Source of the DNA: an uncultured Pseudomonadota bacterium | Lineage (GTDB): Bacteria; Myxococcota_A; UBA796; SXON01 | DNA: 58,523 nt | NCBI GenBank assembly: GCA_903921785.1 | Contig: CAIXRH010000072.1 | Span: forward strand, 1 to 58,523 | Direction: 5' to 3' | In this document: piece after piece, positions 5,432-54,087 of the stretch | How positions within the stretch are numbered: the stretch's first letter is position 1 | How the letters are laid out: every line of letters starts with the position of its first letter | Position numbers and translations under genes: made by a program | The notes under the pieces: generated by a model | What the model was told of the DNA's origin: nothing | The model's database searches: none | The model's input: the letters and a program-made list of their open reading frames with translations, nothing else

Positions 5432-7375
5432 TCAGCGCTTCGGCTCGATCCACCCGTCCGGGCCGAAGTTCGTGGGCCCCTTCCGGTCCTGGAGCACCTC
5501 GGCCACGCGAAGCACCGCCTTGTACGAGCCGAACGGCGGGTAGACGTAGGTTCCAGCCATGCGCGGGTGGTTCATCACCTCGCGGAGCGCCTCCTGGGCG
5601 CACTGGATGCCCACCTCCCGCTGCGCGTCGCGATCGCCGGCGTTTCGGAGCCGGGCGAGGATCGCCGCCGGCACCTGCATGCCGGGCACCTCGTTGTGGA
5701 GGAACTCGGCGTTCTTCAGCGAGACCAGGGGCATGATGCCCACGAGGAACGGCACCTTCTTGAACTTGTCCGTGCGATCGAGGAAGCGGAGGAGCACCTC
5801 GGCGTCGAAGACCGGCTGGGAGAAGAAGAATTCGGCGCCGGCCTCGACCTTGCGGCCGAAGCGCTCCACTTCGAGGTCGAGGTCGATGTGGGCGGGGTTG
5901 CAGCCGGCGCCGACGAAGAGCGCGGTCTGCCCGCCGACGGGCTGCCCGGAGAAGTCGAGCCCCCGGTTGAGCATCTGGATGAAGTTGATGAGCCCGATGC
6001 TGTCGATGTCGAAGACGGCGGTCGCGTCGGGGTAGGTGCCCATCTTGGGCGGATCGCCGGTGACGGCGAGGATGTTGCGGAGGCCGAGCGCGTTGGCGCC
6101 CAGCAGGTCCATCTGCATGCCGAGCAGGTTGCGGTCCCGGCAGCAGTAGTGGACGACCGACTCCATGCCCGGGTCGTCGGCGCCGTGCGCGCCGCGGGTG
6201 TGGGCGCGGACGAGCTGGGCGAGGGCGCTCGGGCCCATGCGGGCGACGGCGCGGGGACCATCGGCGATGTTCACCACGTCTACCCCGGCTTCCCGGAGCA
6301 TCGCGGCGCCTTCCACGGCCTTCTGCGCGTCCACCCCGCGGGGCGGATCGAGCTCCACCGAGACGCAGAACTTGCCGCCGTAGAGCCGCTTTGCGAACTC
6401 GCTTCGGGCGACGATCGGCGCGGGCTCCGGGAGCTGCACCTTCTTCTCGGCCCCGGGCTCCTCCACGTGGATCACCCGGCGCTCGGCGGCGACCGAGCGC
6501 ACGAACGCCCGGATCTGCTTGATCATCTCGGGGGTGGTGCCGCAGCAGCCGCCCACGATGCCTGCGCCGAGCTGCACGAAGCGCCGCGCGTGCTCCGCCA
6601 TGTACTCCGGCGCCGCGAGGTACAGCGTGCGCCCTTCGACCACCTGCGGGAGCCCGGCGTTGGGCATCGCCACCAGCTTCAGGTCGGTGACCTCGCGCAT
6701 CCGCTCCAAGACGTGCTGCACGCCGCGCGGGCCGTTGCTGCAGTTGGTGCCGAACGCATCCACCCCCCAGCCGGCCACGGTGCGGGCGGCCTGCTCGGGC
6801 GTGTCGCCCTCGATCTGCATCTGGTCGGGGCCGATGAACGGGAAGCTCATGCAGGCCACGATGGGATGATCCCGCTTCACCGAGCGGATCGCCCGCACTG
6901 CCTGCCAGAGCTCGGCGAGGTGGGTGAAGGTCTCCAGCACGATGAGGTCGGCGCCCGCGTCGATCAGCACTTCGGCCTGCTCGCGGAAGGCCTGGTAGGC
7001 CTCGCCGGGCGCGACCTTCCCGACGGGCGCGAGGAGCGCTCCGGTGGGGCCCATGCTCCCGGCGACCCACGCCTTGTCCTTCGCGGCGGCGCGGGCGAGC
7101 TTCACGCCGCTGGCGTTGATGTCCCGCGCGCGGGACTCCAGGCCGTAGGCCCCGAGCCGCACCCGGTTCGCGCCGAAGGTGTTGGTGGTGATGACGTCGG
7201 CCCCGGCGCGCACGTAGGCGCCGTGGATTTCGCCCACGGTGTCGCCCTGCGAGAGGTTGAGCTCGTCGTAGCAGCGGTTGATGAACACGCCACGGGCGTA
7301 GATCTCGGTGCCCATGGCACCGTCGAACAACAGCACCCGCTGGGCGAGGGCATCGCGGAAGGAGAGGTCGGGCAC
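5432..7375 (-). CDS. bifunctional homocysteine S-methyltransferase / 5,10-methylenetetrahydrofolate reductase
   Basis: The 647-residue product combines an N-terminal homocysteine S-methyltransferase barrel with a C-terminal MetF-like reductase, as in Bacillus YitJ. The zinc cysteines of the methyltransferase are visible: one in GTNCSNGP near residue 210 and two in GGCCGT near residue 275. The second half starts around KFCVSVELDPPRG and keeps the MTHFR barrel motifs (VTGDPPK, a PVFDAE block and GIMPL). It should link the one-carbon folate pool to methionine synthesis. The start is a GTG with CGGAG about seven bases upstream. The gene stands alone, with an unrelated PP2C gene upstream on the same strand. 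Confidence 0.9.
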   Translation of the reverse strand: MPDLSFRDALAQRVLLFDGAMGTEIYARGVFINRCYDELNLSQGDTVGEIHGAYVRAGADVITTNTFGANRVRLGAYGLESRARDINASGVKLARAAAKDKAWVAGSMGPTGALLAPVGKVAPGEAYQAFREQAEVLIDAGADLIVLETFTHLAELWQAVRAIRSVKRDHPIVACMSFPFIGPDQMQIEGDTPEQAARTVAGWGVDAFGTNCSNGPRGVQHVLERMREVTDLKLVAMPNAGLPQVVEGRTLYLAAPEYMAEHARRFVQLGAGIVGGCCGTTPEMIKQIRAFVRSVAAERRVIHVEEPGAEKKVQLPEPAPIVARSEFAKRLYGGKFCVSVELDPPRGVDAQKAVEGAAMLREAGVDVVNIADGPRAVARMGPSALAQLVRAHTRGAHGADDPGMESVVHYCCRDRNLLGMQMDLLGANALGLRNILAVTGDPPKMGTYPDATAVFDIDSIGLINFIQMLNRGLDFSGQPVGGQTALFVGAGCNPAHIDLDLEVERFGRKVEAGAEFFFSQPVFDAEVLLRFLDRTDKFKKVPFLVGIMPLVSLKNAEFLHNEVPGMQVPAAILARLRNAGDRDAQREVGIQCAQEALREVMNHPRMAGTYVYPPFGSYKAVLRVAEVLQDRKGPTNFGPDGWIEPKR

Positions 7376-7394: not shown

Positions 7395-9188
7395 TTATGC
7401 CGAAAGGGTGAGGGTGAGGACGGTGGCGTTGTCGCCGCCGCTACCGTCGTTCGCGGAAAGCACGATCCGCCGGGCGAGGCGCATCGCAGTGGAGGCGTCT
7501 GCGCCCGCGCCGTGCTCGGCGACGAGGTGCTCGACGATGCGGTAGACGCCGGCTTCTTCGGCGGCGGCGTGGTCGCTGATGCCGTCGCTGGCGAGGACGA
7601 GCCACTCGCCGGGGAGCAGGCGCACGCTGGTGGTCATCACGGGGCCGAGGCGGGGCTCGCCGAGCTCATCGAAGTGGCCGAGGTAGCCGACCAGGGCGTA
7701 GCCGCGGTCGTCCCAGGGGAAGGGACCGCCGGCCGCGGCCTGCCGCAGGCGCACGCTGTTGAGGTTCTGGTCCCACAAAAGCGGCGCGACCCCGTGCCGA
7801 CCCACGAGCCACGCGCGGCTGTCGCCCAGGGCGGCCAGCCGCACCACGTCCCCCGCGGTGACGCCCACCACCACCGTGGTGCCCATCGGCACGTGGCGGC
7901 TGAGATCGCCACCGGCGAGGCGGATCGCCGCCTCGGCGACGACGCGGTTGGCACGGTCGAGCGCGGCGAGGAGGAACCGGAAGACCTCCTCCGCGGGGGC
8001 GCCGCGGAGCGCGTCCTGGTGGCCGGTCCACTGCAGCCGGAGGGAGCGGGCGGCGAGGGAGCTCGCGAGGTCGCCCGAGCCGGCGGTGGCGGTGCTGATC
8101 CCGTCGGCGACCATCACCAGGGCGTGCTCGGGGTCGCCGAGGAGGAGGAAGCTGTCCTGGTTGGTCTGCCCGGCGAGGGCCTTCATCGTGCCGATGTGGG
8201 TGTCGAACCCCGCGACGAGCTCGGCCTGTACGCGCCGGGGCAGCGCCTCGCGGCTGGTCCACACCGCGCGGGCGACGGCCAGCGTGTGCGCGAAGGCGAG
8301 CCCATCCCGCGGGCGCAACGCCGGGTCGCGGGCGAGGGCGTAGCGGAGCACCCCGAGCAGCTCGGGCGGCAGGTGGCTGAGCACGGCGGGCGCGAGGTCC
8401 ACCAGCTCGGAGCTGGGGACGGCGTCGGGGAGCAGCACGCCGAGCGCATCTTCAACGAAGCGCCGGGCCGCCCAGCACACATCCTCCGCGAGGGAGCCGC
8501 TCTCCGTGTCGGCTTGCAGCGACCATGTCGAGGTGTGCGTGGCCGCTTCTCGACGGTGGAGCAGGCATTCGCCGCGGGCGTGCAGCGCCGCGAGGGTGTT
8601 CGCGAGGTCCAGCACGCTGGCCCACAACCATCGGGCGTCGGCCGGCGGGCGTTCCGGCGGTGCTACGTCGGGCTCCGGCTCGGCGGGCGGGAGCGGCGAG
8701 GGCAGCTCGGGGGCCGGAAGGGGCTCCGCGAAGTCTCTCTCGGTGACCCCCGGGGCAAGCACGACGTGCGTGTCGTCGAGGAGGAAGCGGTCGTCGATCC
8801 CGGCGAGGGCCGTCACCGCGCCCCACCAGCCGGCGAAGTTGTGCTCGCCGACGAGCTGGAGCATCCACTCTTCGACGTCGGCGAGCGGCTGCGGGCCGCC
8901 GAGGTCCACCAACAAGAGCCCGAGCATCGCCACCGGGTCGTCGGCGGCGAGTTTTCGGGAGGCTTCGGGGTCCGCGAGGTGCCGCGCCAGGAGCCCGCCC
9001 GGCCGACAACGCCGATAGCTCGTGTGCAAGACGTGCCGGGAGACGTGCGTGGGGGACGCGTGACCTTCGCCCGCCCATCGGAGCTGGGCCCCGCGATCGT
9101 CCACCTCGGTGACGGTGGCGAACCCAAACGCAGGATGATGCACCACATCGCCGGGGCGGAGCGGATCGGAGGCGGCGACAGGGTCCAT
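7395..9188 (-). CDS. PP2C-family serine/threonine phosphatase with kinase-like remnant
   Basis: The last 230 residues carry the PP2C metal-site signatures in order: DGIS, MGTTVV, GDSRAW, LASDGISD and GGDNATV, so a Mn/Mg-dependent Ser/Thr phosphatase is likely. The N-terminus (PGDVVHHPAFGFATV) looks like a small SH3/Tudor-type barrel. A middle segment (LAALHARG ... LPPELLGVLRYALARDPALRP) resembles the C-lobe of a Hanks-type kinase without catalytic residues. I chose the ATG at 9188. An in-frame ATG at 9221 exists, but it would share bases with the divergent HD gene start and leave no promoter. The shared control region suggests joint regulation with the HD/radical SAM pair. Confidence 0.82.
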   Translation of the reverse strand: MDPVAASDPLRPGDVVHHPAFGFATVTEVDDRGAQLRWAGEGHASPTHVSRHVLHTSYRRCRPGGLLARHLADPEASRKLAADDPVAMLGLLLVDLGGPQPLADVEEWMLQLVGEHNFAGWWGAVTALAGIDDRFLLDDTHVVLAPGVTERDFAEPLPAPELPSPLPPAEPEPDVAPPERPPADARWLWASVLDLANTLAALHARGECLLHRREAATHTSTWSLQADTESGSLAEDVCWAARRFVEDALGVLLPDAVPSSELVDLAPAVLSHLPPELLGVLRYALARDPALRPRDGLAFAHTLAVARAVWTSREALPRRVQAELVAGFDTHIGTMKALAGQTNQDSFLLLGDPEHALVMVADGISTATAGSGDLASSLAARSLRLQWTGHQDALRGAPAEEVFRFLLAALDRANRVVAEAAIRLAGGDLSRHVPMGTTVVVGVTAGDVVRLAALGDSRAWLVGRHGVAPLLWDQNLNSVRLRQAAAGGPFPWDDRGYALVGYLGHFDELGEPRLGPVMTTSVRLLPGEWLVLASDGISDHAAAEEAGVYRIVEHLVAEHGAGADASTAMRLARRIVLSANDGSGGDNATVLTLTLSA

Positions 9189-9219
9189 CCCCGGGCTATA
9201 TCCCGCGCCCGGAGGTGAC

Positions 9220-10515
9220 ATGGAGGTCCGCGATCCGCTCCACGGCGCGATCCAGCTCGACGAGGGCGAGGTGGCGATCGTGGATCACCCGTTCGTACAG
9301 CGGCTTCGGGGCATCAAGCAGATGGGGTTCTCCGAGCTGCCTTTTCCGGGCGCCGTACACACCCGCTATGCGCACAGCCTCGGCGCCATGGAGCTGGCAG
9401 GCCGGGCGTTCGACAAGGTCTTTCGTCGCGACCCCTTCGGCGACGCCGCGGCCCGCACACGCTTCCGGGATGTGGTCCGGGTGGCCGCGCTCTGTCACGA
9501 TCTCGGCCACGCCCCGTTCTCCCACTGCACCGAGTTCGCCATGCCGCCGCTGCGCGGCCTGGGGGTCTCCGCGTACGATCCCGCGGCGGTGGCCAGCCGG
9601 CTCGACCGTACGGCCAGCCACGAAGACTACACCATCGGGGTGCTGACGAAGTCCACGTTGGATGCCACGATCTCGGCGCACTTCCCCTTCGGTGGTCGCC
9701 ACGTCGCCGCGCTGGTCTCCAGCGAAGTGAAGCTCGACGACGACTTCTTCCACCATGCCGGCCGCGACTACCGCCGGGTCCTCAGCCAGCTCATCAGCTC
9801 CGAGCTCGACGTGGACCGGCTGGATTACCTCGTCCGCGACTCGTACTTCTCCGGCGCCCGCTACGGCGAGATCGACGTGGACTGGCTGCTCAGCAACCTC
9901 GAGTGGCACGAAGACGCGCAAGGAAACGTCTCGTTGATGCTCGATCAGCGAGCCGTGTACGCGTTCGACGACTTCATGATCTCCCGCTACCACATGTTCA
10001 TGTCGGTGTACTTCCACCACAAAAGCGTGGTCTTCGAGGAGATGCTCAAGCGGCACTTCGCGGGCCCCGCCCGAACCTGGGAGTTTCCCTCGGAGATCGA
10101 GGCCTACCTCCCGCTCGACGACGTCGCGATGCACAGCTACCTCCGCAAGGCCGACGACGACTGGGCCCGGCGGATCGTCCAGCGGCGGCCCTACCGGCGG
10201 GTGATCGAGCGGCACGGCAACGAACGCGAGGTGGACCTCACGGACGCCCGCCACCGGCTCGACGCCGCGGGGATCGACCACCTCGCCGCCGGCTCCACGG
10301 GCAAGCTCAGTCGCTACTCCGCGATGGGGAAGAAGCGCGAGAAGGCGCCGCGGATCTGGGTGATCGACCGGAGCCCAGGCAGCCGCGGGGACATCACCCC
10401 CCTCGAAGACGCGACCCGCATCTTCGCCCGCTACCAGGAGGCGCGGCACATCACCCGCCTCTACGTGAACGAGGCCGACGTGGCGCATGCCCGGGACGTC
10501 CTGGACGCCCGGTGA
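9220..10515 (+). CDS. HD-superfamily (SAMHD1/dGTPase-like) phosphohydrolase
   Basis: A 431-residue cytoplasmic metal-dependent phosphohydrolase. It begins with the family's typical opening (VRDPLHGAI) and has the metal ligands His52 in RYAHSLG, His93-Asp94 in CHDLGHAPFSH and the later Asp in DVDRLDYLVRDS. Relatives hydrolyse deoxynucleoside triphosphates or other phosphoesters; the substrate here is unknown. An excellent ribosome site (GGAGGTGAC) precedes the ATG and TATATC lies about 18 bases further up. Its stop overlaps the start of the double radical SAM gene (GTGA), so the two proteins are translated together and probably act in one process. Confidence 0.88.
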   Translation: MEVRDPLHGAIQLDEGEVAIVDHPFVQRLRGIKQMGFSELPFPGAVHTRYAHSLGAMELAGRAFDKVFRRDPFGDAAARTRFRDVVRVAALCHDLGHAPFSHCTEFAMPPLRGLGVSAYDPAAVASRLDRTASHEDYTIGVLTKSTLDATISAHFPFGGRHVAALVSSEVKLDDDFFHHAGRDYRRVLSQLISSELDVDRLDYLVRDSYFSGARYGEIDVDWLLSNLEWHEDAQGNVSLMLDQRAVYAFDDFMISRYHMFMSVYFHHKSVVFEEMLKRHFAGPARTWEFPSEIEAYLPLDDVAMHSYLRKADDDWARRIVQRRPYRRVIERHGNEREVDLTDARHRLDAAGIDHLAAGSTGKLSRYSAMGKKREKAPRIWVIDRSPGSRGDITPLEDATRIFARYQEARHITRLYVNEADVAHARDVLDAR

Positions 10516-13500
10516 CCGCCCGCCCGCCCGACCGCGGCTGGACCTACGTCCGCGCCCCCGACGGCGGCGCCGAACGGGTCGTGGCGCATGGGCACGGGGG
10601 CCGGCTCGAGGTTCGCCGCTGCGAAGGGGAATCCTGGGCCGCCACCATCCGCCGCGCGCGCCTCGCCGCCGAGGCCGGCGCCCCGCCCGGCGCGACGGTG
10701 ACCGGGGACGGTGACGGTCGTTGCGCCTGGGGCCCCGTACCGGAGCGCCCCCCGGTGTCTGGCGCCCCCCTTCGCCGGGTTCTCTTCTTTGAATCCTTGA
10801 TGAACGCGGAGATGCCCCACAACGACGGGGAGCTCTCCCAGGGCGTGCTCCACCTCGCGTCGTCGCTGGCGGGGCTGCCCGTCGAGGTGGTCTTCGCGAA
10901 CGTGAAGATGGCGATCGTGGGGACGGACCGGCCGGTGCAGGGCCTCGACACCCTCGCGGCCGCGCTCGCGGGCGGGCCCATCGAGTTGGTCTGCGTGACG
11001 CTGCTGGAGGGCTACTGGGAGGGAGTGGTATCCCTTATCCGAACGCTGCGTGAGTTGGGATGTCGTGCGCATGTCGCCGTCGGGGGGGTCATGCCCACCC
11101 TCGCCCCCGACGTGGTGGCCGCCCACCTCCCGGACGTCTCGTTCGTATGTCGAGGGGCGGGTGAGGTCTTTCTCCCCAAGCTGGCGGAACTGTTGGGGGA
11201 GGGGGCGAGCATCGACCGCCCGCTGACCGACGCGCAGGTCGGCGCGCTCCTCGCGATGGACGGCCTCTACGCGCGCGACGAGGCGGGTGGACGGCTGGTC
11301 ACGGGCAACCCCGCCGCGGTGGTGGAGGTGCCCGATCTGGACGCCGTCCCGCTCGACCTGAACTTCCTCCAGGCGCGCCACTTCACGACCGGGGTCGAGA
11401 TCGCCTCCTCCCGTGGCTGTGTCCACCGCTGCGTCTTCTGCTCCATCCTCGGGCGGGAGCGGTACCAGTCGCGCTCCGCCGCCGGCGTCCTCGCCCTGCT
11501 CGACCAATACGACCGCCGCCTCCGCGAGCTCTTTGGCGCCACGCCGCCGCCCATGGCTCGCCGGGTGCACTTCTCCGACGACGACTTCGCCTGCGACCGC
11601 GGCCGCGCCCTCGCCCTCTTCCGCGCTCTCCCGTCCACCGCGTTCCGCCTCGCCTCCGTGCAGGTGTCCGTCGCGGACCTCTTCCGCCGCGACGGCGCCG
11701 CGCTCACCGCCGAGCCCGACCTGGAGCTCCTCGACGCCATCCGCCCCGAGGTCTTCGACGACGCCGCCCGCCCCCGGGACGCCCGCGACTTCGTCGCGGA
11801 CCACCGCACCCGCCAGTGGTCCAGCTACCTCCAGCTCGGCGTGGAGGCGTTCACGGACGTGGAGCTGGTGCGGCTCGGGAAGGGCTACTCCCGCGAGCAC
11901 GTGCGCCGGATCGTGGGCGAGCTCGCCGCGCGCCGGGTGCACCTCGACGCCTACTTCATCCTCGCCAACCGCCGCACCACGCTGGGGGAGCTCCTCGAAG
12001 GGTTGGATGAGGTCGTTCGGCTCAAGTCCCTGTATCCCTTGTTCTTCCACCTCCGCTTCCCGGTGGTTCCGAACCTCGTGAGCTACGCGACGAGCGCGAG
12101 CTGGCGGCGGATGGTGCGCCAGGGGGACGCCGCGGCGTTCGCCCTCCGCGGCACCCTCACCGAGCCGGGCTACCCCGAGCTGGACTACCCGCTCGTCGAC
12201 CACGACATCCCCGCCGACCCGCTCGTCCGCGACCACGTGGACGCCGCGCTCCTCACCGACGCCCACCACTACGCCGGCACGTTCGAGGCGCTCCGCGCCC
12301 GCCTCCTGGGCGCGTGGGCGTCCTCCCGCGACCCGGACCTCGAGTACGCCGCCCGCCTGTGCGACGACCGGGGGCGCCGCCGGGTCCTCGAGCTCCTCGA
12401 CCTCGCCCGTCGCGGCGGCCACACCGAAGACCTCGACCCCACACACCCGTCGTCCCTCCAGGCCTCCCCTGCGCTCCGCGCCGCCGTCGCCGGGCAGGCC
12501 GACCGCCTCAAGGCCCACGCCGACGCCACCCTCGGACCCACGGCGGGCTGGCTCCCGGCCTTCCAGCGCTACACCATGGGCGGCGTGACCCGGCTGGTGG
12601 TGATCCCGACCTGGCAATGCGAGCTGCGCTGCAACTACTGCTACATCCCCAAGCAGGACGGCCGGGTGATGACCCCGGACACCCTCGATCGCGCGATCGA
12701 CCTGCTCTGCTCGTCTGAGCGCCGCGATCTGACCTTGCAGATGTTCGGGGGGGAGGCGCTCTTGGAGTGGGCGCTGGTGAAGCGGGCGATCCACCAGGGC
12801 GGCGAGCGGGCCGCGCACCACGGCAAACGCCTGGACTTCGTGCTCTCCTCCAACGGATGGTCGCTCGACGAAACGAAGCTCGACTGGCTGCGGGGGCGCC
12901 CGGTGAAGCTGGAGCTCTCCCTCGACGGCGACCCGGAGACGCAGCGGCGCTACCGTCCCGCCGCGCGCCAGGGCGAAGACTCCTACACCAACGGGATCGC
13001 CCCCCGCGCCGCCGCCATCGTGGCCTCGGGGCTCGCCTACGACGTGATCATGGTGGTGCACCCCGAGCGGGTGGACCGGCTGGCGGCGAACTACGCCCAC
13101 ATCGCCGGCCTCGGCTTCCGCCGGGTGCAGATCAACGTTGCGCTCGGAAAGACCTGGACGCCGGAGCAGCGCGCCACGCTCGCCAGCCAGCTCTTCGCCC
13201 TCTCCGGCTTCCTCCGCGCCAACCCCGACGTGGTGCTGGTGAACGCCGAGAACGTGCCGATGCCGATGCGGCTGAACGCCGAGATCACCGTCGACTGGGA
13301 CGGCGCGGTGTACGGTGGCAACGCCTTCCTCCACGAGACCGAGCACAAGGCACGCTTCCGCCGCGGCCACCTCGACGACCTCCACGCCTTCGACCGCTAC
13401 TGGATGGACGCGCCCACCAACCAGGAGCTGGTGGACTGGAGCTACGGACGGGTGGTCACGGCGAACAACCTCAAGGTCGGCGCGGTGATGACGGACTTCC

Positions 13501-13544
13501 TCAAGTGGTGGCGGGGGGAGCTGGGGCTCAGCGGCAGACGCTGA
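10512..13544 (+). CDS. tandem radical SAM fusion: B12-binding-type domain plus SPASM/maturase-like domain
   Basis: This 1010-residue protein carries two complete radical SAM cores. The first follows a Rossmann-like segment (GGVMPTLAPD...GAGE) resembling the cobalamin-binding region of B12-dependent radical SAM enzymes, and has Cys303, Cys307 and Cys310 in CVHRCVFC. The second has Cys703, Cys707 and Cys710 in CELRCNYC, followed by the GGE-type motif (MFGGEALL) typical of peptide-modifying maturases. The first domain lacks the classical DxHxxG cobalamin ligand, so base-off binding of B12 is uncertain. No small precursor-peptide gene is seen next to it. The start is GTG overlapping the HD stop; its last 17 bases overlap the convergent gene downstream. 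Substrate unknown. Confidence 0.85.
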   Translation: MTARPPDRGWTYVRAPDGGAERVVAHGHGGRLEVRRCEGESWAATIRRARLAAEAGAPPGATVTGDGDGRCAWGPVPERPPVSGAPLRRVLFFESLMNAEMPHNDGELSQGVLHLASSLAGLPVEVVFANVKMAIVGTDRPVQGLDTLAAALAGGPIELVCVTLLEGYWEGVVSLIRTLRELGCRAHVAVGGVMPTLAPDVVAAHLPDVSFVCRGAGEVFLPKLAELLGEGASIDRPLTDAQVGALLAMDGLYARDEAGGRLVTGNPAAVVEVPDLDAVPLDLNFLQARHFTTGVEIASSRGCVHRCVFCSILGRERYQSRSAAGVLALLDQYDRRLRELFGATPPPMARRVHFSDDDFACDRGRALALFRALPSTAFRLASVQVSVADLFRRDGAALTAEPDLELLDAIRPEVFDDAARPRDARDFVADHRTRQWSSYLQLGVEAFTDVELVRLGKGYSREHVRRIVGELAARRVHLDAYFILANRRTTLGELLEGLDEVVRLKSLYPLFFHLRFPVVPNLVSYATSASWRRMVRQGDAAAFALRGTLTEPGYPELDYPLVDHDIPADPLVRDHVDAALLTDAHHYAGTFEALRARLLGAWASSRDPDLEYAARLCDDRGRRRVLELLDLARRGGHTEDLDPTHPSSLQASPALRAAVAGQADRLKAHADATLGPTAGWLPAFQRYTMGGVTRLVVIPTWQCELRCNYCYIPKQDGRVMTPDTLDRAIDLLCSSERRDLTLQMFGGEALLEWALVKRAIHQGGERAAHHGKRLDFVLSSNGWSLDETKLDWLRGRPVKLELSLDGDPETQRRYRPAARQGEDSYTNGIAPRAAAIVASGLAYDVIMVVHPERVDRLAANYAHIAGLGFRRVQINVALGKTWTPEQRATLASQLFALSGFLRANPDVVLVNAENVPMPMRLNAEITVDWDGAVYGGNAFLHETEHKARFRRGHLDDLHAFDRYWMDAPTNQELVDWSYGRVVTANNLKVGAVMTDFLKWWRGELGLSGRR

Positions 13545-45327: not shown

Positions 45328-46395
45328 ATGGCGGTTCGAAACGGCTGGCAGATGGTCGCGCCCAAGGAGATGGTGCCCGTCCGTGAGGAGATGGGCGCCT
45401 TGCCCGCAGGCTATGCGCGCGTGCGCGTCGCCGGCTGTGGGGTGTGCCACACCGACCTCGGCTTCTTCTACGAGGGCGTGCGCACCCGCCACGCCCTCCC
45501 GCTCACCCTCGGGCACGAGATCGCGGGGTTCGTGGAGGAAGGTCCCGCGGAGCTCGTCGGGCAGGCGGTGCTCGTCCCGGCGGTGATCCCGTGCGGCCAG
45601 TGCGAAGCCTGTCGGGACGGCGTGGGCGGCATCTGCGGCAAGCAGATCTTCCCCGGGAACGACGTTCAGGGCGGCTTCGCCGATCGGGTGGACGTGCCCG
45701 CCCACGGCCTCTGCCTCGTCCCCGGCTGCACGAAGGCCGACCAGCCGCTGGGCGCCTCCGGCATCACCCTCCGCGAGCTCTCCGTCATCGCCGACGCCGT
45801 GAGCACCCCCTACCAGGCCGTCATCCACTCCGGGCTGCGCACGGGGGACACCGCGATCGTCGTCGGTTGCGGCGGAGTCGGCGGGTACGCGGTGCAGATC
45901 GCCCTCGCGTTCGGCGCCAACGTCATCGCGATCGACGTGCGGCCCGAGCGCCTCGCGGCCGCGGCCGCCGCCGGCGCGGTGACCTTCGACGCGAAGGAGG
46001 CCGACCTCAAGAAGAAGGTCCGCGCCCTGGTGAAGGAGCGCGGCTGGCGCCCCGAGCGCTGGAAGATCTTCGAGACGTCCGGCAGCACCCCCGGGCAGAA
46101 CACTGCGTGGGACCTCCTCGGGCCCGGCGCGATGCTCCTCGTGGTCGGCTTCACGCGGGATGCTTCGCCGATCCGCCTCTCCAACCTCATGGCGTTCGAC
46201 GCGACCGCCCGCGGCGTGTGGGGCTGCCTCCCCGAGCACTACCCGGCCATCCTCCAGCTCGCGCTCGACGGCAAGGTGGACATCCGCTCCCAGACCGAGC
46301 TCCGGCCGCTGTCCGAGCTCCCCACCGTCTTCGAAACCCTGCACCACGGCGGGCTCCCCCGCCGCGTCGTGCTCGTCCCCCCGGAGTCCCTGTGA
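45328..46395 (+). CDS. had: 6-hydroxycyclohex-1-ene-1-carbonyl-CoA dehydrogenase
   Basis: A 355-residue zinc-dependent medium-chain dehydrogenase, first gene of the benzoyl-CoA operon. It oxidises the alcohol made by the dienoyl-CoA hydratase, using NAD, to 6-oxocyclohex-1-ene-1-carbonyl-CoA. Catalytic zinc ligands include Cys40 (GCGVCHTD) and His63-Glu64 (GHE); structural zinc cysteines are 89, 92, 95 and 103. The NAD motif GCGGVGG follows. The strong match to Thauera-type Had, not to a general alcohol dehydrogenase, rests on the partners that follow. The ATG has CGGAG upstream. Confidence 0.92.
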   Translation: MAVRNGWQMVAPKEMVPVREEMGALPAGYARVRVAGCGVCHTDLGFFYEGVRTRHALPLTLGHEIAGFVEEGPAELVGQAVLVPAVIPCGQCEACRDGVGGICGKQIFPGNDVQGGFADRVDVPAHGLCLVPGCTKADQPLGASGITLRELSVIADAVSTPYQAVIHSGLRTGDTAIVVGCGGVGGYAVQIALAFGANVIAIDVRPERLAAAAAAGAVTFDAKEADLKKKVRALVKERGWRPERWKIFETSGSTPGQNTAWDLLGPGAMLLVVGFTRDASPIRLSNLMAFDATARGVWGCLPEHYPAILQLALDGKVDIRSQTELRPLSELPTVFETLHHGGLPRRVVLVPPESL

Positions 46396-47489
46396 ACGAC
46401 CACACCCTCGACGTCATCGGCACCCCCGGCCAGGTCCGCTACGAGCGGCGTCCCGTCAAGGACGCCTCCGGCGCCGTGGTCGATGGCCTCCACGCCATCC
46501 AGATCACCCTGGACAACCCGAAGCAATTCAACTCCTACACCACCGACATGGTGAAGGAGGTCATCCTCGGCTTCCGCCGCGCGAGCTGCGACCGCGCCGC
46601 CGTGGCCGTGGTGTTCACCGCCGCGGGGTCTAGCGCGTTCTGCACCGGGGGGAACACCAAGGAGTACGCCGAGTACTACTCCGGGCAGCCCCACGAGTAC
46701 CGCCAGTACATGCGGCTGTTCAACGACATGGTCTCCGCGATCCTGATGTGCGACAAGCCGGTGATCTGCCGGGTGAACGGCATGCGCGTGGGCGGTGGGC
46801 AGGAGATCGGCATGGCGTGCGACTACTCGGTCGCGCAGGACCTCGCGGTCTTCGGCCAGGCTGGCCCCAAGCACGGCAGCGCGCCCGACGGCGGCTCCAC
46901 CGACTTCCTCCCGCTGTACGTCGGCGTGGAGAACGCGATGGGCTCCTGCACGCTGTGCGACCAGTGGACCGCCCACGAGGCCCTCCGCCTCGGCCTGCTC
47001 ACCCAGATCGTGCCGGCGCTGAAGGTCGACGGCACGTTCGTCCCCAACCCGATGGCCATCACCGACCGCTACGTCGACGAGTACGGGCGGGTGATCCTCG
47101 GCAAGAAGAAGACCGGCGCGGAAGCCGCCGCCGCGAAGGCGGTGATGGCCTCCGGCACGGTCGACCTGTCCTTGCTCGACGAGGTGGTGGACCAGCTCGT
47201 CACCAAGCTCACGCTCACCTTCCCCGACTGCACGACCAAGACGATCGAGTCGATCCGCAAGCACAAGCTCGCGCACTGGGACAAGAACAAGGAGAGCAAC
47301 CGCGCCTGGCTCGCCAACAACATGATGACCGAAGCGAGCGCCGGGTTCCGAGCGTTCAACGAAGGTCCGAAGGGCCACCGGGAGATCGACTTCATCGATC
47401 TGCGCCTCCGCCTCGCCAACGGCGAGCGGTGGGGCGAGGAGCTCATCCGCGCGGTCTCCCCCCAGTACAAGACCTGGGACCCGAAGTGA
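46392..47489 (+). CDS. oah: 6-oxocyclohex-1-ene-1-carbonyl-CoA hydrolase (ring opening)
   Basis: A 365-residue crotonase-family enzyme that adds water to the ring and cleaves it, giving 3-hydroxypimelyl-CoA. Motifs typical of Oah/BamA are present: ITLDNPKQFNSYTTDMV, CTGGNTKEYAEYYSGQP, GGQEIGMACDYS, the active-site region GSAPDGGSTDFLPLYVG and the C-terminal SAGFRAFNEGPKGHREIDF. It is longer than simple enoyl-CoA hydratases, as expected for the family. The GTG overlaps the had stop by four bases, and its own stop overlaps the dch start. Confidence 0.93.
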   Translation: MNDHTLDVIGTPGQVRYERRPVKDASGAVVDGLHAIQITLDNPKQFNSYTTDMVKEVILGFRRASCDRAAVAVVFTAAGSSAFCTGGNTKEYAEYYSGQPHEYRQYMRLFNDMVSAILMCDKPVICRVNGMRVGGGQEIGMACDYSVAQDLAVFGQAGPKHGSAPDGGSTDFLPLYVGVENAMGSCTLCDQWTAHEALRLGLLTQIVPALKVDGTFVPNPMAITDRYVDEYGRVILGKKKTGAEAAAAKAVMASGTVDLSLLDEVVDQLVTKLTLTFPDCTTKTIESIRKHKLAHWDKNKESNRAWLANNMMTEASAGFRAFNEGPKGHREIDFIDLRLRLANGERWGEELIRAVSPQYKTWDPK

Positions 47490-48247
47490 GCGGCCCGGTC
47501 CGCGTGGCCGTCGAGGGCGGGCTGGCGTGGATCACGCTCGACCGTCCTCGCGCCAACGTGATCGACGCCGCGATGACCGCCGCGATGCGCGCGGCGATCG
47601 CCGACCTGCGCGGCGTCGCCGAGCTCAAGCTGGTCGTCTTCGAGGGCGCCGGCACCGAGTTCAGCTTCGGCGCGTCGGTGGAGGAGCACCAGCGGGACCA
47701 GGTGGAGGGGATGCTCAAGGGCTTCCACGCCTTCTTCCGCGAGCTCGAGGCGCTCGGCGTGCCCACCGCGGCCGTCGTCCGCGGGCGGTGCCTCGGCGGC
47801 GGCCTGGAGGTCGCCGCGTGGTGCGGTCGGGTCTTCGCCGCCCCCAACGCAGTCTTCGCGTGCCCCGAGGTGAAGCTCGGGGTGTTCGCGCCCATCGGCA
47901 GCCTGGCGCTCGACTGGCGCGTCGGCAAGGGCCGGTCCATCGGCATGCTCCTGAGCGGGGACAGCGTGGGCGCCGAAGAAGGCGCCCGCATCGGCCTCGT
48001 CGACGAGATCGCCGAGGACCCCGCCGCCGCCGCCCGCGCCTGGTACACCGCCAAGCTCGCGCCGCTCTCGGCTGTGGCCGTCCGCCACGCCTGGGCTGGC
48101 GTGCGCGTCGGGATGGCCGCCCGCCTCCGCACCGACCTGACCGAGCTGGAGGCGCTCTACCTGGAGCGCCTCGTCGCCACCCACGACGCCAACGAGGGCA
48201 TCGAAGCCTTCATCCAGAAGCGTCCCCCGACCTGGACCCACCGTTGA
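47486..48247 (+). CDS. dch: cyclohexa-1,5-diene-1-carbonyl-CoA hydratase
   Basis: A 253-residue crotonase-fold protein that hydrates the diene product of benzoyl-CoA reductase to 6-hydroxycyclohex-1-ene-1-carbonyl-CoA. Family motifs are LDRPRANVIDAAMTAAM, FSFGASVEEHQRD, GRCLGGGLEVAAWC and PEVKLGVFAP. Its length equals known Dch proteins. The GTG start overlaps the oah stop. The order had-oah-dch-bcrCBAD is compact, unlike the clusters of most known denitrifiers, where the lower-pathway genes may be placed differently. Confidence 0.9.
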   Translation: MSGPVRVAVEGGLAWITLDRPRANVIDAAMTAAMRAAIADLRGVAELKLVVFEGAGTEFSFGASVEEHQRDQVEGMLKGFHAFFRELEALGVPTAAVVRGRCLGGGLEVAAWCGRVFAAPNAVFACPEVKLGVFAPIGSLALDWRVGKGRSIGMLLSGDSVGAEEGARIGLVDEIAEDPAAAARAWYTAKLAPLSAVAVRHAWAGVRVGMAARLRTDLTELEALYLERLVATHDANEGIEAFIQKRPPTWTHR

Positions 48248-48254
48248 GGACCCC

Positions 48255-49421
48255 ATGAACCGAGCAGAAATCGTCGCCTGGGCCGAGGCGAACTACCTCG
48301 ATCTGGAGTTCACGGCGGCCCGCCGTTGGCTCGCCGAGGAGCCGGGCCGAAAGGCCGTAGGCTTCCTCCCCGTGTACGCACCCGCCGAGATCATCCACGC
48401 GGCCGGCATGCTCCCCGTGGGCATCCACGGCGGCGGCGACCGGATCGACATCATCCGCGGCGACGCCTACTACCAGTCCTACATCTGCCACCTCCCCCGG
48501 AGCGTGGTGGAGCTGGCCGTCACCGGCCGGCTCGACTTCCTCACCGGCGCGCTCTTCCCGAGCACCTGCGACGTGATCCGGAACCTCTCCGGCATGTGGA
48601 AGGTGATGTACCCCGAGAAGTACAGCCGCTACGTCGATCTCCCCCAGGACTTCGCCAAGGGCGTCGGCGGCGACTTCTGGACGCACGAGCTCCGTGAGCT
48701 GGTGCACGACATGGGCGAGCTCCGCGGCTCCCCGATCACCGAGGATGAGCTCCGCAAGGGCATCGGCGACTGGAACCGCCGCCGCGCCCTGGTGCGGAAG
48801 CTCTACGCCAAGCGCCGCGACGAGCCGCACAACGTGCCGACCGACGAGCTGTACCAGCTCCTTCGCGCCGGCGAGATCGTGCCGTTCGAAGAGTTCATGA
48901 CGATGGCGCAGGCCTACCTCGACGTGTGCGACAAGGACGGCCGCCGTCCCCGCGACAACGCCCGGGTCATCGTGATCGGCGCCTTCTGCGAGCAGCCGCC
49001 GCTCGGCCTCATCCGCACCATCGAGCGCGCGGGCTGCTACATCGTCGACGACGACTTCCTCATCGGCAACCGCTTCCTCACCCGGGAGGTGGACTGCTCG
49101 GGGGACGCCGTACGGGCCCTGGCGGAGACCTTCCTCAACCACACCGTGGCGAACCCGATCGTCTACGAGCGGGACGCCGACGGGAAGAAGAAGCTGGTCG
49201 GGGAGCGGCTCCGCGCCGCCCGCGCCGAGGGCGCGATCTTCTCCGCGCCGAGCTTCTGCGACCCGGCGCTCCTCGATCGGCCGATGCTCCAGGCGGGCGC
49301 CGCGCGCGAGGGCATCTCGTTCATCTCCTTCAAGTACGCCGAGAACACGGGGCAATTCCAGCAGTTCCGTGAACAGGCCGGCACCTTCTCCGACGCCATC
49401 AAGCTCTGGGGGAACGTATGA
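48255..49421 (+). CDS. bcrC: class I benzoyl-CoA reductase, subunit C (BcrC)
   Basis: A 388-residue member of the HgdB-like dehydratase-reductase superfamily. Three Cys (78 in YICHLP, 105 in PSTCDVIR, 335 in FCDP) are positioned to bind a [4Fe-4S] cluster, as in the catalytic module shared with BcrB. Together they reduce benzoyl-CoA to cyclohexa-1,5-diene-1-carbonyl-CoA. It begins seven bases after dch and overlaps bcrB by four bases. The ATP module is BcrA/BcrD, so this is the ATP-dependent class I type, not the tungsten BamB system. Confidence 0.93.
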   Translation: MNRAEIVAWAEANYLDLEFTAARRWLAEEPGRKAVGFLPVYAPAEIIHAAGMLPVGIHGGGDRIDIIRGDAYYQSYICHLPRSVVELAVTGRLDFLTGALFPSTCDVIRNLSGMWKVMYPEKYSRYVDLPQDFAKGVGGDFWTHELRELVHDMGELRGSPITEDELRKGIGDWNRRRALVRKLYAKRRDEPHNVPTDELYQLLRAGEIVPFEEFMTMAQAYLDVCDKDGRRPRDNARVIVIGAFCEQPPLGLIRTIERAGCYIVDDDFLIGNRFLTREVDCSGDAVRALAETFLNHTVANPIVYERDADGKKKLVGERLRAARAEGAIFSAPSFCDPALLDRPMLQAGAAREGISFISFKYAENTGQFQQFREQAGTFSDAIKLWGNV

Positions 49422-50713
49422 GCACCGTCGTCCGCGACCAGTCCCAGGAGCTCCAGAAGCAGCTCATCTCGGGCTACTTCGACTCGCTCTCCACCGCGAA
49501 CGAGGACGGGAAGAAGGTGGTCTACACCTTCGTGCCCGGGAACCTCACCGAGCTCATCCGGGCGTTCGACCTGCTCCCGGTCCTCCCCGAGATCAACGCC
49601 CTCCAGTACGGCATGCGCCAGAAGACCGGGCAGTTCATCCTCGACGCCGAGAAGGCCGGGCACTCCGAGGATGTGTGCACCTACGTGAAGGCCGATCTCG
49701 GCATGATCCGCGCCGGCAACATCGGGCCCACCGGGAAGAAGCTCCCGAAGCCCGACCTGCTGCTCTTGAGCTACACCGGCTGCTACACCTTCATGAAGTG
49801 GTTCGAGCTGCTTCGGGAAGAGTACCAGTGCCCGGTGGTGATGCTGCATGTGCCCTACCAGGGCGACGGGAAGATCTCCCCGGCCCACCGCGACTACGTG
49901 GTGCAGCAGCTCAAGGAGAAGCTCATCCCGGCGTTGGAGGAGCTCTCCGGCAAGAAGCTCGACGAAGACCGCCTCAAGGAGATGCTCAAGCTCTCCGCGA
50001 TGGCGGAGGACGACCTCGTCGCCGTGTTCCAGTCGGCGAAGGCCAAGCCCAGCCCGATCGACGCGTGGTTCGGCGGCGTGTACTACATCGGCCCGATGTT
50101 CACCGCGTTCCGCGGGACGCAGGCCGGCGTGGACTACTACAAGCTGCTCCGGGCCGAGGTCGAGGAGCGCATCCGGCTCGGAAAGGGCCCGATCACCCCG
50201 GAAGGGGACATGAACCAGGAGCGCTTCCGGCTCGTGGCCGAGGGCCCGCCCAACTGGACGAGCTTCCGGGAGTTCTGGAAGATGTTCTACGACGAGGGCG
50301 CCACCGTCGTGGCTTCCACCTACACCAAGGTGGGCGGCACCTACGACTTCGGCTTCCGTCACGACTACACCCGGCCGCTGGAAACCCTCGCTGAATACTG
50401 CGGTGAGTGCTACACCAACCGCAACGTCCCCACCCGCATCGACATGCTGGTGAAGTACGTGGAAGAGTACGAAGCAGACGGCTTCATCATCAACTCGGTG
50501 AAGAGCTGCAACAGCTTCTCCGCCGGCCAGCTCCTCATCCTCCGGGAAGTCGAGCGGCGCACCGGGCGCCCGGGCGCGTTCATCGAGTCCGATCTCGTGG
50601 ACCCCCGCTACTTCTCCGCCGCCAACATCAAGAACCGCCTCGAGAGTTATCTCCAGATGATCGAGGCTCGTCGGGCCGGCGGGCACGTGTCCGGCCTGGA
50701 GGTGTCGCCTTGA
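49418..50713 (+). CDS. bcrB: class I benzoyl-CoA reductase, subunit B (BcrB)
   Basis: A 431-residue partner of BcrC in the substrate-reducing module. Candidate cluster cysteines are Cys122 in SYTGCYTF, Cys328 and Cys331 in YCGECYTNRN and Cys364 in VKSCNSFSAGQ. The C-terminal block (PGAFIESDLVDPRYFSAANIKNR) is a hallmark of the family. The ATG overlaps the bcrC stop (ATGA), and its stop overlaps the TTG of bcrA. This stoichiometric coupling fits the heterotetramer known for Thauera. Confidence 0.94.
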   Translation: MSTVVRDQSQELQKQLISGYFDSLSTANEDGKKVVYTFVPGNLTELIRAFDLLPVLPEINALQYGMRQKTGQFILDAEKAGHSEDVCTYVKADLGMIRAGNIGPTGKKLPKPDLLLLSYTGCYTFMKWFELLREEYQCPVVMLHVPYQGDGKISPAHRDYVVQQLKEKLIPALEELSGKKLDEDRLKEMLKLSAMAEDDLVAVFQSAKAKPSPIDAWFGGVYYIGPMFTAFRGTQAGVDYYKLLRAEVEERIRLGKGPITPEGDMNQERFRLVAEGPPNWTSFREFWKMFYDEGATVVASTYTKVGGTYDFGFRHDYTRPLETLAEYCGECYTNRNVPTRIDMLVKYVEEYEADGFIINSVKSCNSFSAGQLLILREVERRTGRPGAFIESDLVDPRYFSAANIKNRLESYLQMIEARRAGGHVSGLEVSP

Positions 50714-52014
50714 ACGCATACTTGGGCATCGACCTCGGGAGCACCACCACCAAGGCGGTGATCCTCGATGAAGCAGGGGAGGTCCTCGGTCGGGGCATCA
50801 CCAACTCCCGGTCCAACTACTCGGTGGCGGCGCGCATCGCCGGCACGGAGGCCACGATCGACGCCCGCTTCGCCCTCCTCGGGCGCGAGCTGGGCGACCT
50901 CGACCAGACCGGTCTCCCGGCCTCCTTCCGTTTGGAGCAGTACCTCACCCAGCTCAAGCTGCTCGGGCAGATCGTGGAGGAGGAAGGCTCCAAGGGGCGC
51001 AGCGCCACCTACGGCAAGCCGCTGCTCGATAAGCTGGTCGAGATCCTGGTGGCCATGGAAGGCGCCGAGCTCGAGCGCTTCGCCCGCAAGGAAGAAGCGG
51101 GCAGCAACTTCTTCCGCGACCGCGCGGCCGCCGACTTCGCGAAGTTCGCCGAAGAGCGTGGGGATCGCAAGGGCGTCACCTTCGAGGCCCTGCTCGCCGT
51201 GTTCGACCGCGCGATCCTCCGGGTCGAGAACGCCGACGTGGACGTGTCCTTCGAGGGCAACATCCTCCGCGCCGTGGAGCGTATCGGCGGCGGCGACGTG
51301 CGCGTGGCCGTGCAGAAGATCCGCGACACGCCGCTGGTGATGGCCGCGTCGGTGGGCACCGGGTACGGCCGCGCCCGACTCCCGTTCCCCCGCGAGCAGA
51401 TCCGCAGCGAGATCCTCTGCCATGGGCTCGGGGCCCACGCGATGTTCCCCGAGACCCGCACGGTGCTCGACATCGGCGGGCAGGACACCAAGGCCATCCA
51501 GGTGGACGGCGCGGGCATCGTCACCTCGTTCCAGATGAACGACCGCTGCGCGGCCGGCTGCGGCCGCTACCTCGGCTACATCGCCGACGAGATGAACCTC
51601 GGGCTCCATGAGCTCGGGCCGCTCGCCGACCAGTCCAAGCGCCCTACCCGCGTGAACTCCACCTGTACGGTCTTCGCGGGCGCCGAGCTCCGCGATCGGC
51701 TCGGCATGGGCGAGAAGCGGGAGGACATCCTCGCCGGTCTCCACCGCGCGATCATGCTCCGGGCGATGAGCCTGCTCGCCCGCTCCGGCGGGGTGAACGA
51801 CGAGTTCACCTTCACCGGCGGCGTGGCCCGCAACTCCGCCGCCGTGCACGCGCTCATGGAGCTCGTGGAGGAGAACTACGGCAAGCGCATCCTCAACATC
51901 TCCCCCAACTCCATCTTCACCGGCGCGCAGGGGGCGGCGATGTTCGCCCAGCGTTCCTTCGAAGAGACCCAGCACGCCCCGGCCGTGTCCGGCGGCGCCG
52001 AGGTGCACGCATGA
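50710..52014 (+). CDS. bcrA: class I benzoyl-CoA reductase, subunit A (BcrA, ATPase)
   Basis: The 434-residue ATP-hydrolysing subunit of the acetate/sugar kinase/Hsp70/actin (ASKHA) fold. It opens with YLGIDLGSTTTKAVI and has the DIGGQDTKAI phosphate loop. Cys280 (NDRCAAGCGR) and Cys319 (NSTCTVF) are the expected ligands of the [4Fe-4S] cluster bridging BcrA and BcrD. Its length of 434 is the long Thauera-type BcrA, not the short Azoarcus BzdQ type. The start is a TTG within the overlap TTGA; no better start is near. It drives electrons from reduced ferredoxin, with two ATP per pair of electrons, to the ring. Confidence 0.94.
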   Translation: MNAYLGIDLGSTTTKAVILDEAGEVLGRGITNSRSNYSVAARIAGTEATIDARFALLGRELGDLDQTGLPASFRLEQYLTQLKLLGQIVEEEGSKGRSATYGKPLLDKLVEILVAMEGAELERFARKEEAGSNFFRDRAAADFAKFAEERGDRKGVTFEALLAVFDRAILRVENADVDVSFEGNILRAVERIGGGDVRVAVQKIRDTPLVMAASVGTGYGRARLPFPREQIRSEILCHGLGAHAMFPETRTVLDIGGQDTKAIQVDGAGIVTSFQMNDRCAAGCGRYLGYIADEMNLGLHELGPLADQSKRPTRVNSTCTVFAGAELRDRLGMGEKREDILAGLHRAIMLRAMSLLARSGGVNDEFTFTGGVARNSAAVHALMELVEENYGKRILNISPNSIFTGAQGAAMFAQRSFEETQHAPAVSGGAEVHA

Positions 52015-52862
52015 ACACCACCGTAGGCATCGACGTCGGCACTGGCGCCGTGAAGGGCGTGGTCGTCCGCTCCAACGCCGGCAGCGACGGGGTGATCGTC
52101 ACCACCCGGGTGGACCGGATGCGTCGCCGGGACGTACACAGCGTCGCCGAAGAGGTCTTCCACGGCGTGCTCGCCGAGGCGGGCATCTCCACGAAGGACG
52201 TGGACTACATCGCCACCACCGGCGAGGGGGAGGACCTGCCCTTCGCCACCGGCCACTTCTACGGCATGACCGCGCACGCGCGCGGCGGCATCTTCCTCGA
52301 CCCCTCGGCCGTCGCCGTGGTGGACGCCGGCGCGCTCCACGCCCGCGCCGTCGCCATGGATGGGCGGGCCAAGGTGCTCTCCTACCGGATGACCAGCCAG
52401 TGTGCGTCCGGCTCGGGGCAGTTCCTCGAGAACATCGCCCGGTACCTCGGGGTGTCGATCGACGAGGTGGGCGAGCTGTCCTTGTCCTCCTCCAACCCGG
52501 AGAAGGTATCGTCCATCTGCGCGGTGCTCGCGGAGACGGACGTAATCAACATGGTCAGCCGGGGCATCTCCACGCCCGACATCCTCCGCGGCATCCACCT
52601 CTCCATGGCCGGCCGTTTCGCCAAGCTGGTGCGCGCGCTCAAGGTCAACGGCACGGTCTTGATGACCGGCGGCCTGGCGTTCGACGCGGGTCTGCGCGGC
52701 GCCTTCCAAGAGCTGGTCGACAAAGACGGCGGCGCGAAGATTGAGGTGAAGACCCACCCGCTCTCCATCCACGCCGGCGCCATCGGCGCGTCGCTCTGGG
52801 GCGCCTGGCGGTACGAGAAGCTCCGCGAGCGGGGCGTGGACGTGCTGGTCGCGGCGCCCTAG
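52011..52862 (+). CDS. bcrD: class I benzoyl-CoA reductase, subunit D (BcrD, ATPase)
   Basis: A 283-residue ASKHA ATPase that pairs with BcrA. The first ATP-binding loop is TVGIDVGTGAVKGVV. Cys131 (SQCASGSGQFLEN) and Cys170 (SSICAVLAETDVI) are the second pair of ligands of the shared cluster, so all four expected cysteines exist. The ATG overlaps the bcrA stop. The complete CBAD set with all ligands argues that the enzyme is functional. Confidence 0.94.
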   Translation: MNTTVGIDVGTGAVKGVVVRSNAGSDGVIVTTRVDRMRRRDVHSVAEEVFHGVLAEAGISTKDVDYIATTGEGEDLPFATGHFYGMTAHARGGIFLDPSAVAVVDAGALHARAVAMDGRAKVLSYRMTSQCASGSGQFLENIARYLGVSIDEVGELSLSSSNPEKVSSICAVLAETDVINMVSRGISTPDILRGIHLSMAGRFAKLVRALKVNGTVLMTGGLAFDAGLRGAFQELVDKDGGAKIEVKTHPLSIHAGAIGASLWGAWRYEKLRERGVDVLVAAP

Positions 52863-52863
52863 C

Positions 52864-53343
52864 ATGCAGACCGACCCCGAACGCCGCCTCGAGCGCGACT
52901 GGCGCTCGATGATCCGCATCAGCCACGACTTCTTCCACGCCTGGCGGAAGGCCGTGGCCGACGCCTACGGCGAAGAGCGGGCCGCCGAGCTGGAGCTGTC
53001 GTTCTGGGCCGAGGTCGGGAAGGGCACGGCCAACGCTTACCTCGAGCGCGGCGGCGACCCCGAGGACCTCTTCCGCATCGTCGACGTGCTCCGCCGCGCG
53101 TCGGACGTGATGGGCGAGGTCTCCGAGACGGTCCGCGGCGACGACGGCGTGCGGCTGGTGCACACCCGCTGCCCCTGGCCCGACGGCTACCGCAGCCGCG
53201 GCTTGACCGCCCATTGTGGCGACGGCTGCGACGCCTGGTTCCGCGCCACCGCGTATGGCATCAACCCGGCCGTCACCGTCACCAGCGAGTGTCGGATTCC
53301 CGACGGCGCCGCCACCTGCACCCGCCTCTTCTCACGGGCATAG
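52864..53343 (+). CDS. ATC-hydrolase-like protein of the benzoyl-CoA operon
   Basis: A 159-residue protein that begins one base after the bcrD stop. The first half is helical (ISHDFFHAWRKAVADAYG ...), the second half has clustered Cys/His (HTRCPW, AHCGDGCDAWF, SECRIPDGAATC), resembling the L-2-amino-thiazoline-4-carboxylate hydrolase-like family. Members of this family also occur beside other radical or dehydratase-type CoA enzymes, so a helper or CoA-thioester role is possible. Its job is not known. Confidence 0.6.
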   Translation: MQTDPERRLERDWRSMIRISHDFFHAWRKAVADAYGEERAAELELSFWAEVGKGTANAYLERGGDPEDLFRIVDVLRRASDVMGEVSETVRGDDGVRLVHTRCPWPDGYRSRGLTAHCGDGCDAWFRATAYGINPAVTVTSECRIPDGAATCTRLFSRA

Positions 53344-53346
53344 ACG

Positions 53347-54087
53347 ATGAACAAGCTCCAGGATCGTGTCGCCATCGTCACTGGGGGCGGGCAGGGCATC
53401 GGCGAGGCCATCGCCCGGGCGTTCGTCGCCCAAGGGGCGAAGGTCGCCGTGGTGGACGTGCAGCTGGCCAACGCCGAGAAGGTCGCTGCGTCCCTGGGGG
53501 ATTCGGCGATGGCCTGCGCCTGCGACGTGGGCGACCGCGCCCAGGTGGACGCGAGCGTCGCCGCCGTCACCGAACGCTGGGGCCGGGTCGACATCCTGGT
53601 CAACAACGCCGGCATCACCCGCCCCGCGATGCTCCACAAGATGACGCTGGAGCAGTGGCACCTCGTGCTCCGCGTGCACCTCGATGGCAGCTTCCACTTC
53701 CTCCAGGCCGTCTCCACCGGGATGATCGCCCGGAAGTACGGGCGGGTGATCAACGTCACCAGCACGGCCGGCCTCCTCGGCACCATCGGTCAGGCCAACT
53801 ACTCCGCGGCCAAGGCGGCGATCGTCGGGCTCACGATGTCGGGGGCCAAGGAGCTCGGCCGCCACGGGATCACGGTGAACGCGGTCGCCCCCGCGGCCGC
53901 CACGCCGATGACCGAGACCATCCGCACCGACGAACGGTTCAAGGAGAAGTACCTCGAGCGCATCCCGCTCGGCCGGTGGGCGGAGCCCGCGGAGATCGCC
54001 CCGGTCTTCGTTTTCCTCGCCAGCGACGACGCGAGCTACGTCACCGGACAGGTGCTCGCGGCGGACGGCGGGCTGACGATCCGGTAG
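53347..54087 (+). CDS. FabG-like short-chain dehydrogenase
   Basis: A 246-residue classical SDR with TGGGQGIG cofactor motif, NNAG, the catalytic Ser in NVTSTAG and YSAAK. It is the last gene of the benzoyl-CoA operon, three bases after the previous stop. It may oxidise 3-hydroxypimelyl-CoA or a related 3-hydroxyacyl-CoA formed after ring opening; this is inference. The family also includes 3-oxoacyl-ACP reductases, so fatty acid synthesis is an alternative. It ends in a hairpin that includes its stop codon. Confidence 0.82.
   Translation: MNKLQDRVAIVTGGGQGIGEAIARAFVAQGAKVAVVDVQLANAEKVAASLGDSAMACACDVGDRAQVDASVAAVTERWGRVDILVNNAGITRPAMLHKMTLEQWHLVLRVHLDGSFHFLQAVSTGMIARKYGRVINVTSTAGLLGTIGQANYSAAKAAIVGLTMSGAKELGRHGITVNAVAPAAATPMTETIRTDERFKEKYLERIPLGRWAEPAEIAPVFVFLASDDASYVTGQVLAADGGLTIR

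Follow-up and report, generated by a model that had tools for sequence, protein, structure and literature searches.

A fused double radical SAM protein as a probable accessory of His-Xaa-Ser peptide systems in Myxococcota

What does a protein with two radical SAM cores do, and does the gene beside it share its task? The question is posed by a locus in the window, that is, the whole stretch of 58,523 nucleotides analyzed here. In this locus the gene for such a protein directly follows that of an HD phosphohydrolase, and the initial annotation proposed a pathway in which the HD enzyme would process a nucleotide or phosphate group. The three genes concerned are the following.

7395..9221, minus strand: PP2C-type phosphatase of 608 aa, divergent from the HD gene (Pfam PP2C_2)
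9220..10515, plus strand: HD phosphohydrolase of 431 aa, ATG start, SAMHD1/2hek-like, directly upstream of the fusion (PDB sequence match)
10512..13544, plus strand: double radical SAM protein of 1010 aa, GTG start; an open frame with full-length homologues (45-76% identity) in many Myxococcota

The TGA stop codon of the HD gene (10513-10515) and the GTG start at 10512 overlap by 4 nt (...CGG TGA / GTG ACC), as had been claimed. The GTG start is backed by the homologues, with an ATG beginning at the same place and a DRGWxY segment. The PP2C gene is on the minus strand and divergent from the HD gene, and is thus not co-transcribed with it. In a PDB sequence search the HD protein matches 2hek (E 3.3e-35) and SAMHD1 (E ~1e-20), with homology extending to 2o6i, and its HD residue pair sits in CHDLGH.

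How general is this neighborhood? The arrangement of PP2C, HD and double radical SAM genes was sought in relatives, where the HD and PP2C genes are not linked to the fusion while the two radical SAM domains stay joined. Of the 58 relatives, 52 have the HD gene, and most of these are without the fusion. In every other genome having both, the HD gene and the fusion are on separate contigs; the contig breaks of draft genomes could mask linkage here and there, though hardly throughout. The HD and PP2C genes are divergent and less than 100 bp apart in 21 of the 21 family genomes that have both, fusion-free genomes included. From these gene orders we judge that HD and PP2C form a conserved pair independent of the fusion, the latter lying downstream in the window genome merely by chance. 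The HD-fusion neighborhood is private to the window genome. A single nucleotide or phosphate pathway formed by the HD phosphohydrolase and the double radical SAM protein, which the overlap and the shared orientation in the window would favor, is made highly improbable by the separate contigs elsewhere and by the persistence of the HD/PP2C pair without the fusion. The proposal of the HD enzyme as a pathway partner is thus not borne out, and we judge the PP2C phosphatase to lie outside the pathway as well.

Is the union of two different radical SAM cores itself real? The protein had been described as a tandem fusion of a B12-type and a maturase-type core, with Cys303/307/310 and Cys703/707/710. 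Both CxxxCxxC motifs are present, and the fusion is indeed genuine, being kept in relatives and having folds that resemble OxsB in the first half and CteB and anSME in the second. Its parts are arranged as follows.

10512..10766, plus strand: N-terminal region, residues 1-85, with 'DRGWxY...GRxEV' kept in relatives (alignment)
10767..11204, plus strand: B12-binding-type Rossmann domain, residues ~86-231, with loops 'VGGVMPTLAPD' and 'CRGAGE' (PF02310, profile search, fold match)
11379..12311, plus strand: first radical SAM core with the C-terminal portion of the first half, residues ~290-600 (predicted-structure alignment to OxsB)
11418..11441, plus strand: first radical SAM motif, C303-VHR-C307-VF-C310, invariant in a 15-sequence alignment of full-length homologues
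12579..13520, plus strand: maturase-type radical SAM core with SPASM-like C-terminal fold, residues ~690-1003 (predicted-structure alignment)
12618..12641, plus strand: second radical SAM motif, C703-ELR-C707-NY-C710, invariant in the same 15 full-length homologues and absent from the fusions of genomes G027, G052 and G235

The Pfam family Radical_SAM gives two matches in the window protein, and is found in 19 of 20 homologues. The fusion is present in 23 of the 58 relatives, with identity down to 45%, and its first half in 28 of 379 Myxococcota genomes, mostly as full-length fusions. On this distribution of homologues the full-length fusion is more than a chance joining, and is conserved across several Myxococcota families. 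When GTDB contigs were scanned with the window protein, 15 close relatives and two distant matches were found. The close relatives are all metagenome-assembled, and mostly carry the titles Myxococcota, Deltaproteobacteria or Proteobacteria, on which the assignment to the phylum Myxococcota is based. The record CAMBIK010000013 (locus L056), titled Klebsiella pneumoniae, encodes a 73% identical fusion and behaves like a genome of the window's genus; the title looks wrong. An Elusimicrobia locus (L070) with 32% identity was set aside as probably a relative at the superfamily level only. There, at L070:2318-8620, a B12-type radical SAM gene lies directly before a gene like the second half of the fusion, and the same segment contains two more radical SAM genes and an open reading frame like nitrogenase component 1 (PF00148).

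The N-terminal region precedes the B12-type domain. It is only partly conserved, and is longer in other genera. The region was considered as a possible RiPP recognition element; a separate model from a longer relative (pLDDT 71) had no PDB match with E < 0.4, and no known fold was recognized.

The remainder of the first half has the architecture of a B12-type radical SAM enzyme. The PF02310 B12-binding profile matches residues 115-224 of the window protein at 26.1 bits, which is below its cut-off of 32.1, and is found in 20 of 20 homologues with a best E of 1.7e-10; a profile search also identifies an OxsB-like loop. In a predicted structural model built on 15 sequences (mean pLDDT 78.6), residues 86-621 align with OxsB (5ul3) with Z 19.4 over 445 residues (rmsd 4.8), and the model likewise aligns with TsrM, MgmA and CysS. 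What is shared with OxsB, TsrM, CysS, TokK and MgmA is the order of a B12-binding-type Rossmann domain and then a radical SAM core, over ~370-445 aligned residues; the fusion differs from them in being only ~15% identical, in reaching none of the NCBIfam cut-offs and in having a second radical SAM core. A cobalamin-dependent step, most likely C-methylation, would be in keeping with this architecture, and we put the chances of it at about even. Yet the model also aligns with AprD4 (6fd2, Z 18.6) and MiaB/RimO (Z ~15.8), close behind OxsB, and methylation is therefore not secured. The first half could instead be a B12-fold radical SAM protein of changed chemistry, with or without cobalamin, such as AprD4-like dehydration or reduction, cyclization or S-chemistry. 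Both the sub-threshold PF02310 score of the window member and the failure to reach the NCBIfam methylase cut-offs agree with this; the RiPP radical SAM C-methyltransferase family TIGR03975, for example, scores 28-31 bits where the cut-off is 281.85. Against it stand the presence of PF02310 in all 20 members, the retention of the OxsB-like loop residues, and weak matches to families that methylate C or P, as well as to the MCR Gln methylase family. On balance we regard such changed chemistry as possible but somewhat unlikely; it concerns the reaction only, and is compatible with the peptide substrate proposed below.

The second half is a maturase-type core. Its model aligns with CteB (5why) with Z 26.2 over 299 residues (rmsd 3.0) and with anSME (4k36) with Z 24.1, so that the fold and the CxxxCxxC motif are those of the CteB/anSME-type SPASM maturases and the PapB family. 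Unlike these, the second half has none of the auxiliary-cluster cysteines of a SPASM domain, and there is no cysteine after C733 in the window protein. It scores 111.3 bits against the PapB family NF047865, well below the cut-off of 340, and the 79.3 bits of the window protein against TIGR03978 (cut-off 370) show that the fusion is not HxsB. Among the matches listed, no NCBIfam family is at or above its cut-off for either half.

Do the two cores work together? In G027 and G052 the fusion has lost CxxxCxxC from its second half; the motif is kept by a separate protein that shares 53% identity with the second half of the window protein. The second half has similarly decayed in G235, where an intact copy (57% identical) lies on the same contig ~8 kb off. 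The second half of G053 looks frame-shifted, and its loss of the motif was left out of the count of decayed forms (n = 3). That a decayed second core is paired with an intact copy elsewhere in three genomes points to a need for the second core, and because of this pairing both halves look like parts of one pathway. Of the earlier suggestion of two chemical steps, the steps are plausible within one pathway, and the HD protein as their enzyme partner is not supported. The decayed and intact forms provide a natural test case for the coupling of two radical steps.

There is precedent for such an arrangement. FbiC is a fused CofG-CofH FO synthase having two radical SAM domains that serve one pathway, and is split in some organisms (PMC11917521). 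It acts on a small molecule (ARP and tyrosine), however, whereas here a B12-type core is followed by a maturase-type core. Neither CofG nor CofH is matched among the best 25 of the 56 families listed for the window protein.

On what, then, might the fusion act? The initial annotation saw no precursor peptide. This holds for the window, where, as beside the scanned fusion, partner, hydroxylase and methylthiotransferase loci, there is no open reading frame with three or more His-Xaa-Ser repeats. Yet the same genome encodes a precursor, HxsA4, on contig C63 along with a radical SAM cluster of its own. The relevant genes are these.

L051:6876-7316: HxsA4 precursor, contig C63 of the window genome (NF038313, 106.9 bits, cut-off 55)
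L051:7313-8836: HxsB maturase, contig C63 of the window genome (TIGR03978, 504.7 bits, cut-off 370)

The cluster also includes HxsD and another four radical SAM genes, and the HxsA4 protein comprises a leader and a core of the form HCS(HGS)nHGQW. HxsA4, HxsB, HxsC4 and HxsD are NCBIfam families of the His-Xaa-Ser (Hxs) systems (Haft and Basu, cited in PMC9062424). Such systems have long been known by sequence, and the open-access papers searched describe no product.

HxsB (TIGR03978) is found in 25 of the 28 genomes with the fusion, compared with 126 of all 379 (p 2.4e-10, a value in which kinship inflates the independence of the genomes). HxsB is missing from three: in G026 and G053 the fusion adjoins other Hxs genes at contig ends, and the third, G041, is a genome only 73% complete. 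The fusion adjoins Hxs genes in G153, G027, G052, G053, G026 and G312, and in G181 lies ~13 kb from HxsB on the same contig with a hydroxylase between. Proximity of fusion and Hxs genes therefore occurs in seven genomes from at least four families. Taken together, we consider it probable that the 1010-aa protein serves the HxsA4-type Hxs system of Myxococcota as an accessory peptide maturase. That the HxsA4 precursor is its substrate, as linkage and co-occurrence suggest, is slightly favored over the contrary. The fusion set is an accessory, since Hxs systems are common without it, occurring in ~100 such genomes. A B12-type radical SAM protein is not found among the Hxs families matched.

Two further observations concern RiPP genes in these genomes. 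A second HxsB-type gene occurs on contig C334 of the window genome (L052:4666-6132) and in G005 (L123), where no His-Xaa-Ser repeat peptide was found alongside. In G027 and G052 a RiPP oxidase of the MbnB/TglH/ChrH type (DUF692, MNIO; L039:865-2589 and L040) is encoded close to both the fusion and the Hxs cluster.

The fusion is accompanied by a well-defined set of other enzymes. A further radical SAM protein, partner B, is encoded directly after the fusion in ~10 relatives, and is ~26-30% identical to the second half of the fusion. Within the 58 relatives it occurs in 20 genomes, all of them among the 23 that have the fusion, and in none of the 35 that do not. The same is true of an Asp/Asn beta-hydroxylase-type protein (PF05118), found in 20 fusion-bearing genomes and 0 of the 35 others. 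Fisher's test for partner B and hydroxylase against the fusion gives p ~1e-12 each, overstated by the relatedness of the genomes. Another radical SAM protein, D, whose gene is often divergent from that of the hydroxylase, is present in 21 genomes (E < 1e-30), again all fusion-bearing, and in none of the 35. No hydroxylase was detected in two genomes outside the order, G153 and G235, nor in G312 within it. A MiaB/RimO-like methylthiotransferase occurs in 11 genomes with the fusion and no others, and is counted as an optional member of the set. A flavin halogenase-like protein (c5) was rejected as a core member; it is present in 12 of the 23 fusion genomes, but also in the fusion-free G030, G035 and G042. 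SelO and an unassigned membrane protein adjoin the fusion within the genus, which we regard as synteny only.

In the window genome the set is scattered, with the fusion on C72, partner B on C253 (a 72% identical ortholog), the hydroxylase and D on C129, the Hxs cluster on C63 and the methylthiotransferase-like gene on C252. In most genomes, this one included, fusion and Hxs cluster lie apart. If the fusion serves the Hxs system, the genes of its pathway may thus be dispersed, over four contigs in the window genome. The substrate would be the HxsA4 peptide encoded on C63, with its leader and (His-Gly-Ser)n-His-Gly-Gln-Trp core. Using cobalamin and SAM, the first half would act on the peptide at an unactivated carbon, C-methylation being the likeliest reaction. 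The second half, which keeps the SAM-cleaving cluster and is without the cysteines of an auxiliary cluster, would abstract hydrogen from the same peptide in a second step, which may be, for example, a crosslinking, dehydrogenation or epimerization. Partner B, D and the hydroxylase would then add further changes. More tentatively, at least four radical SAM domains and a beta-hydroxylase, often joined by the methylthiotransferase-like enzyme, may form a dispersed pathway that places a second layer of modification on already Hxs-modified poly(His-Gly-Ser), including B12-dependent alkylation, with two different radical steps performed on the peptide by one fused enzyme.

The main rival to HxsA4 as substrate is that the fusion, partner B, hydroxylase and D act on something else, whether another peptide, a housekeeping protein or a small molecule, and that a common habitat, common descent or the co-transfer of radical SAM islands accounts for the association with Hxs. 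The genes are mostly scattered, unlike a classic RiPP cluster, and the ~100 genomes with Hxs and no fusion point the same way. In addition G006, of the same genus as the window genome, has an HxsA4 core identical to that of the fusion-bearing G009, yet is without the fusion, partner B and hydroxylase, so the presence of the fusion is not mirrored in the precursor sequence. In G153, contig C20 holds another radical SAM locus (L157:6519-17217), with genes like partner B, D, the second half of the fusion and the flavin halogenase, away from Hxs and HxsB. Yet the fusion repeatedly adjoins Hxs genes, in four families, and no conserved small open reading frame that might encode a dedicated precursor was found near the genes of the fusion, partner B, hydroxylase or D. 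We therefore think a different substrate unlikely, though much less so than a pathway with the HD enzyme.

As far as our searches reach, the joining of a B12-type core to a maturase-type core, together with a strict accessory set around Hxs, is a new form of an otherwise known type of system. The Hxs systems of Myxococcota now have a defined set of accessory enzymes, among them a double radical SAM enzyme that also occurs naturally in split form, and this makes possible a concrete co-expression experiment on the fate of Hxs peptides.

The window contains other genes of some interest. At 5432-7375 a homocysteine S-methyltransferase is fused to a methylenetetrahydrofolate reductase. The region 45352-54087 encodes two HGD-D and BadF/BcrA-type subunits together with beta-oxidation-like genes; this is likely an operon of the class I benzoyl-CoA reductase type, suggesting anaerobic degradation of aromatic compounds.
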